From assembly GCA_002787535.1 (NCBI GenBank), contig PCXB01000041.1, positions 57,100 through 121,099 of the forward strand: a stretch of DNA of 64,000 nt, written 5' to 3'. Below, piece by piece: positions 55,085-56,010 of this stretch (position 1 is its first letter; every line of letters starts with the position of its first letter). A program made the translations under genes and the position numbers. The stretch comes from Deltaproteobacteria bacterium CG11_big_fil_rev_8_21_14_0_20_45_16. Its GTDB lineage: Bacteria; Bdellovibrionota; UBA2394. A model generated the notes under the pieces. That model saw nothing but the letters and a program-made list of their open reading frames with translations, was not told the DNA's origin and did not search any database.

Positions 55085-55489
55085 TCATCCTGTTGTTTCG
55101 GGCTTTCGACGATTGGATTTTTTGTCGCTTTGACGATGCTTTTCTTGAAGCATCTTTTCTTTAGCGCGTTTTGATCGTTTGCGTTTTTGTCGCCGAATCT
55201 TTTCAATGGCCTGTTGTTTTTCGGAAGCCCGCTTGTTTTGAATTTGATCCATTTTGTCGCAGAGAATTTGTCGCGCCAAATAGCGATTGTCTTGCTGGGA
55301 TCTGGTTTTCTGGCATTTAACCTCGAGGCCACTGGGGTTGTGTTTGAGGTAAACGCAGGAACTAACTTTATTGACGTTTTGACCGCCCTTTCCTGAGCTG
55401 CGGATAAACTTTTCTTGAAGATCATGCTCGTAAAGTCCAAGTTGGGCCATTTGTTCTTCAAGTTTTTTCCATTTGTCAGGGCGAATCAT
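55085..55489 (-). CDS. Release-factor-like protein (GGQ domain, ArfB/mtRF-R type)
   Basis: EKFIRSSGKGGQNVNKVSSCVYLKHNPSGLEVKCQKTRSQQDNRYLARQIL, Lys/Arg-rich C-terminus. Confidence 0.9.
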   Translation of the reverse strand: MIRPDKWKKLEEQMAQLGLYEHDLQEKFIRSSGKGGQNVNKVSSCVYLKHNPSGLEVKCQKTRSQQDNRYLARQILCDKMDQIQNKRASEKQQAIEKIRRQKRKRSKRAKEKMLQEKHRQSDKKSNRRKPETTG

Positions 55490-55506: not shown

Positions 55507-56010
55507 ATGGCTGGTATTTGGAGAAGATGTAGTTCTTGTAAGTCCGAGATTTTGCAGGGGACGCCCTACTATGTTTGTTCCGTGTCGACGTGTCAGCAGA
55601 AGCGAACTAACTACGCTTTTTGCAGCGTCGAGTGCTGGGATCAGCATATCCCGGTTGAGCGGCATCGAGGCGATTCGGTTTCAGCCAATGAAAAAAGGGC
55701 ACCGATGGTGGATGAGTCTCAAGAGTCCGTTTCCACTGGTCCAAATCCGCCCGCTCAGAGGCGAACGATTGTGACAAGTGGGGGCGCGAATTCTGCACCG
55801 CCCCCCTCCAGCTCCAGCACGAGTGTTGATGGCGAGATTTTGGTAGTAGCTTCAAAAGTGAAAAAATACATATCGGATCGCTCGGGAATGAATACGAGTG
55901 CCAGCGCGTTTGAGGGTCTTACGGATCGAATCCGCTGGCTCTGCGATAAGGCGATCGAAAAGGCTCGTGAGGACGGTCGAAAAACCGTTATGGATCGAGA
56001 TATTCCCTGA
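55507..56010 (+). CDS. Zinc finger-bacterial histone-fold fusion protein
   Basis: N-terminal Cx2C-x12-Cx4C-x9-Cx3C-x3-H-x5-H; C-terminal EILVVASKVKKYISDRSGMNTSASAFEGLTDRIRWLCDKAIEKAREDGRKTVMDRDIP resembles Bdellovibrio-type histone folds. ATG at 55507 preferred over TTG 55489. Confidence 0.8.
   Translation: MAGIWRRCSSCKSEILQGTPYYVCSVSTCQQKRTNYAFCSVECWDQHIPVERHRGDSVSANEKRAPMVDESQESVSTGPNPPAQRRTIVTSGGANSAPPPSSSSTSVDGEILVVASKVKKYISDRSGMNTSASAFEGLTDRIRWLCDKAIEKAREDGRKTVMDRDIP

Follow-up and report, generated by a model that had tools for sequence, protein, structure and literature searches.

Comparative analysis of a bacterial ZZ histone and of its separable finger module

Histones have only recently been established as chromatin proteins in bacteria. 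ZZ histones, in which a histone fold follows an N-terminal finger, are to our knowledge a group without known function. A gene of this layout lies at positions 55507..56010 of the forward strand in the 64,000-nucleotide stretch of DNA analyzed here (the window), and it raises the question of what the finger does and whether it depends on the histone to which it is joined. A preliminary description of the locus proposed that the finger may target the histone to a protein partner, RNA or a DNA structure, so that the protein would act as a specialised histone rather than a bulk chromatin protein.

Gene, protein layout and histone half

Translation of the open reading frame (ATG to TGA, stop included) confirmed a real two-part protein of 167 amino acids, in which an N-terminal finger precedes a bacterial histone. 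Homologues support the ATG at 55507 as the start rather than an in-frame TTG upstream at 55489, and the gene is single copy in its own 2.44-Mb, 99-contig Bdellovibrionota genome. Residues 1-66 (55507..55704, forward strand like all parts of the gene) make up a predicted two-zinc finger with the ligands C8, C11, C24, C29, C39, C43, H47 and H53, spaced exactly as in the eight-ligand array of the preliminary description (C8-x2-C11-x12-C24-x4-C29-x9-C39-x3-C43-x3-H47-x5-H53). Between finger and histone, likewise as described, lies a Ser/Pro-rich disordered linker (residues 67-108, 55705..55830) that contains RRTIV (55759..55773), a variant of the motif [RK]R[IV][IV]. The histone fold, of the bacterial-dimer type, occupies residues 109-167 (55831..56007) and stops right after the start of alpha3. 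In an AlphaFold2 model built from a 25-row alignment, finger and histone are confident (high pLDDT) and the linker has a pLDDT of about 50.

The suspicion that such proteins may already have been catalogued was right: Schwab et al. (2024; PMC11390915) defined "ZZ histones" by an N-terminal finger with C4 and C2H2 sites and a bacterial-dimer-like histone, and the 167-residue protein is a member of this family, its architecture thus not new. The same work reports a ZZ histone in B. bacteriovorus, where its expression is low (PMC11390915). In Hocher et al. (2023; PMC10627809), the second B. bacteriovorus histone is named Bd3044 and is present in 37% of Bdellovibrionota genomes; since the B. bacteriovorus genome has two histones, its ZZ histone is probably Bd3044. 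A review calls bd3044 essential (PMC11318664); the work it cites for this describes deletion attempts on bd0055 (PMC10627809).

Residues 109-166 match structures of HBb/Bd0055 (8cmp, 8fvx) in phmmer searches (E about 1e-12) and, more weakly, HLp (9qt0) and HTkC (9f2c), while Pfam and NCBIfam histone models cover loop2/alpha3 alone, below their own cut-offs. Foldseek with the full model returned HBb structures on top (HBb-DNA, 9ezz/9f0e), with the p62 ZZ domain tenth, bearing out the Bd0055-type fold that had been read into the C-terminus. The segment GRKTVMDRDI (55975..56004) maps to loop 2/alpha 3, as had been assigned, and would carry the R158-D165 clamp and the predicted DNA contacts K159, T160 and R164. 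Twelve HBb residues that contact DNA were named by Hu et al. (2024; PMC11317129) from a pair of crystal structures and from simulations, and we mapped them onto the 167-residue protein by the phmmer register (offset 107). Ten are kept (S9, K10, K12, N22, T23, S24, A25, K52, T53 and R57), as are the HBb clamp R51/D58 and the dimer core, and two are changed (T8 to A115, K16 to S123). Conservation of S116, K/R117, K/R119, N129, T130, S131, K159, T160 and K/R164 across 25 ZZ-histone homologues supports HBb-like DNA bending as a predicted property of the ZZ histone.

The finger and its predicted fold

Seven of the eight finger ligands are invariant in the 25 diverse homologues and C39 is cysteine in 23 and aspartate in two; many non-ligand residues of the finger are conserved as well. 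A chance array of cysteines and histidines is ruled out by conservation of the finger in 139 genomes. The two fusion proteins with aspartate at the fifth ligand (L031 and L054) read FDSV there, and the aspartate is a possible alternative zinc ligand. Following Schwab et al. (PMC11390915), the ligands would pair into a C4 site (8, 11, 39, 43) and a C2H2 site (24, 29, 47, 53). That publication prints the sixth ligand two residues past the fifth (C51/C53; profile C41/C43), whereas the fifth-to-sixth spacing is four in all 25 aligned homologues (CxxxC; DxxxC in two); the printed spacing may be a misprint.

Strands are predicted at residues 4-7, 14-16, 20-24 and 60-64 and a helix at 41-51. When the finger model alone was compared with the PDB, p62 ZZ-peptide complexes ranked best and MYND domains next, both as weak matches (best E 0.05, TM about 0.5), so the two-zinc character proposed for the array finds its nearest predicted likeness in two-zinc ZZ and MYND domains. 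The Pfam ZZ profile gave no match to the 167-residue protein at E values up to 10 and none among the 25 homologues at 0.1, a Pfam search returned no MYND match for the finger, and a finger-only profile search of PDB sequences returned no match. The finger reached zf-FLZ (PF04570) and VATC (PF18716) with E values of 0.0003 to 0.02, below the curated cut-offs.

Both ZZ and MYND domains bind peptides. The reading we favor, with moderate confidence, is that of a DNA-bending histone dimer with two tethered fingers that dock a protein partner. The C-terminal histone fold would dimerise and bend DNA without sequence preference, like HBb; the dimer would bear two fingers, each on a linker of about 40 residues; and each finger, as an independently conserved, presumably zinc-loaded ZZ/MYND-like protein-docking module, would hold a partner protein, other than another histone, close to the histone-bound DNA. 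This reading is favored by the HBb match, by the conservation of DNA contacts and finger ligands and by the p62 peptide complexes at the head of the weak finger matches. Against it count the weakness of those matches, the failure to match Pfam ZZ, the replacement of HBb T8 and K16 and the published observation that ZZ histones do not conserve the residues of the peptide pocket in eukaryotic ZZ domains (PMC11390915).

The finger could instead provide a second surface for binding nucleic acids and so bias the histone towards RNA or a DNA structure, which we regard as unlikely but as deserving some weight. The finger's net charge of +3, its many conserved Arg/Lys residues and the conserved basic linker motif would suit such a surface, and a finger of this kind would not have to bind a histone when it occurs alone; the nearest folds, ZZ and MYND, are those of peptide binders. 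As to the linker, full-length homologues often carry the short motif [RK]R[IV][IV], and the broader pattern [RK][RK][ILV][ILV] is present in 63 of 123 distinct linkers, whereas 500 shuffles gave 1.0 on average and never more than 5. Because the sequences are related, these 63 occurrences count as conservation rather than as separate events.

A small protein with an RF-1 (release-factor-like) domain is encoded divergently on the reverse strand (55085..55489), its start codon 17 bp from that of the ZZ histone, so that any promoter must fall within the coding sequence of the facing gene. L003/L083 and L004/L078 retain the same two genes, separated by larger gaps. The RF-1 protein, dut, a PfkB kinase and a leucyl-aminopeptidase-like protein are linked to the ZZ histone in close relatives only, and gene-order comparison showed no conserved neighbor pointing to a finger partner beyond those relatives, which counts against docking. 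Because the linkage is limited to close relatives, an operon-based function was rejected and none is drawn from the neighbors.

Finger and histone together and apart

A profile of the finger found it in 139 of 291 Bdellovibrionota genomes, there almost always in single copy, and in 87 of 284 genomes in the phylum of a Myxococcota relative. With classes set by open-frame length and the extent of the match, 111 of the 139 carry the finger fused to a histone, 27 carry the finger only and one a degenerate fragment. Histone profile matches occur in 264 of the 291. Among the 111 fusion genomes, the fusion is the sole histone found in 31, while 55 have two histone matches, 24 have three and one has four; the source genome of the 167-residue protein encodes two short histones besides the fusion. 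A few Myxococcota genomes, e.g. L232 (1661-4189), L233 and L234, have a second, more divergent finger (CxxC...CxVASCNxGRxKLxFCSxxCWxxHxPTARHR), which in the latter two is a short protein without a histone. In a Myxococcota homologue (L222/L228, genome G368) finger and histone lie in overlapping different frames, which points to a frameshift in the gene or a fault in the assembly.

Six of the finger-only genomes, 83-98% complete, belong to genus g7 of family f3; their finger keeps all eight ligands and, with its tail, measures 66-68 residues. No histone was found in them by the histone profile at E 0.001 or by Pfam PF00808 at E 0.1. A finger whose tail ends in a VILRR-like motif, alongside a separate short histone, is encoded in 13 genomes of family f8 and in one genome each of f15, f17 and f25. 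Because the short histones of f8 mix with those of full-fusion genomes on a poorly resolved tree (64 columns), the tree weakly suggests that the stand-alone fingers of f8 more likely arose by loss of the histone half than by gene fission, which is weakly disfavored.

ZZ domains of p300, HERC2 and ZZZ3 read H3. By analogy the finger might read the tails of other histones, as its structural likeness to ZZ and the two other histones of the source genome would allow; we consider this very improbable, since six genomes keep the finger with no histone found, the ZZ histone is the only one found in 31 of the 111 fusion genomes, and Schwab et al., for whom the pocket residues are not conserved, judged histone-tail partners unlikely (PMC11390915).

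Genus g18 of family f12 has one syntenic locus at which some genomes carry the fusion and others a bare histone of 67-73 residues. The fusion is found there in L127 and L245 (named syntenic relatives L099, L117, L101 and L140) and the bare histone in four genomes (L063, L064, L243 and L244), each with a single histone and with no match to the finger profile. Both forms share an upstream GAF-GGDEF protein, a 526-residue protein without a Pfam match and a glycosyltransferase, with the SMC gene about 3 kb downstream; some flanks are cut by contig ends. Since the neighbors of L244 are most similar to those of L127, while the histone tree (poorly resolved, 64 columns) places L063 and L064 within the clade of fusions, the locus suggests at least two separate changes between fusion and bare histone, whose direction would be an inference. 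Of the two other histones of the source genome, one (L240, G000:C18, 2-5294) is encoded shortly downstream of a gene for an SRP54-type GTPase, probably ftsY, with an smc-like gene some 2.5 kb away; linkage to smc is seen also in f12. Histones are linked to smc in Leptospira as well (PMC12701072).

The swap of a bare histone into this syntenic position, together with the DNA-contact residues that homologues still conserve, speaks against a TAF-like state in which the histone fold is now a mere dimerisation domain, DNA organising has been lost and the finger does the work. The low expression in B. bacteriovorus (PMC11390915) and the occurrence of fingers alone would fit such a state, which we think improbable. 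For docking, the lone fingers of 27 genomes, six of them with no histone found, and the bare-histone swap in four are favorable.

From lone fingers and from the alternation of fusion and bare histone at one locus, the finger is, by comparative evidence, a module separable from the histone that comes and goes independently between related bacteria. Because it is kept without histones, histone reading cannot be its only job, and targeting of the histone by the finger is not the sole direction in which the earlier proposal can be read. The view of a specialised rather than bulk protein stands in part: it suits the low expression in B. bacteriovorus and perhaps the source genome with its two further short histones, but since the fusion can be a genome's sole histone and alternates with a bare one in g18, a minor specialised role does not hold for every ZZ histone. 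On balance, we consider it moderately probable that the finger constitutes its own family, an essentially single-copy, ZZ/MYND-like docking module of Bdellovibrionota and Myxococcota that has repeatedly been attached to and detached from a nucleoid histone and works with or without one, the [RK]R[IV][IV] linker motif or, in stand-alone forms, the VILRR C-terminal tail being a third functional element. Genomes with a finger and no histone, together with the g18 alternation, narrow the possible functions of the finger, and the g18 species, which differ in carrying the fusion or the bare form at the same position, offer a natural experiment.

Relation to known systems

Sequence likeness to zf-FLZ (PF04570) and VATC (PF18716) is sub-threshold, and by the curated cut-offs the finger is not a member of either. 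Its predicted two-zinc fold may resemble that of eukaryotic ZZ domains (p62, p300, HERC2) and MYND domains (ZMYND8/11, SMYD2), to which it has weak structural matches; it differs from them in ligand spacing and in matching neither Pfam family. HBb/Bd0055 (8cmp, 8fvx, 9ezz) is alike in the histone domain and in its DNA-contact and dimer residues; the ZZ histone has an additional N-terminal finger and linker, both of which HBb lacks. From the ZZ histones of PMC11390915 there is no essential difference: ligand order, finger sites, C-terminal histone and occurrence in Bdellovibrionota and Myxococcota are the same. What the present analysis adds to that known family is comparative and a modest new insight, namely that its two halves are gained or lost independently of each other.
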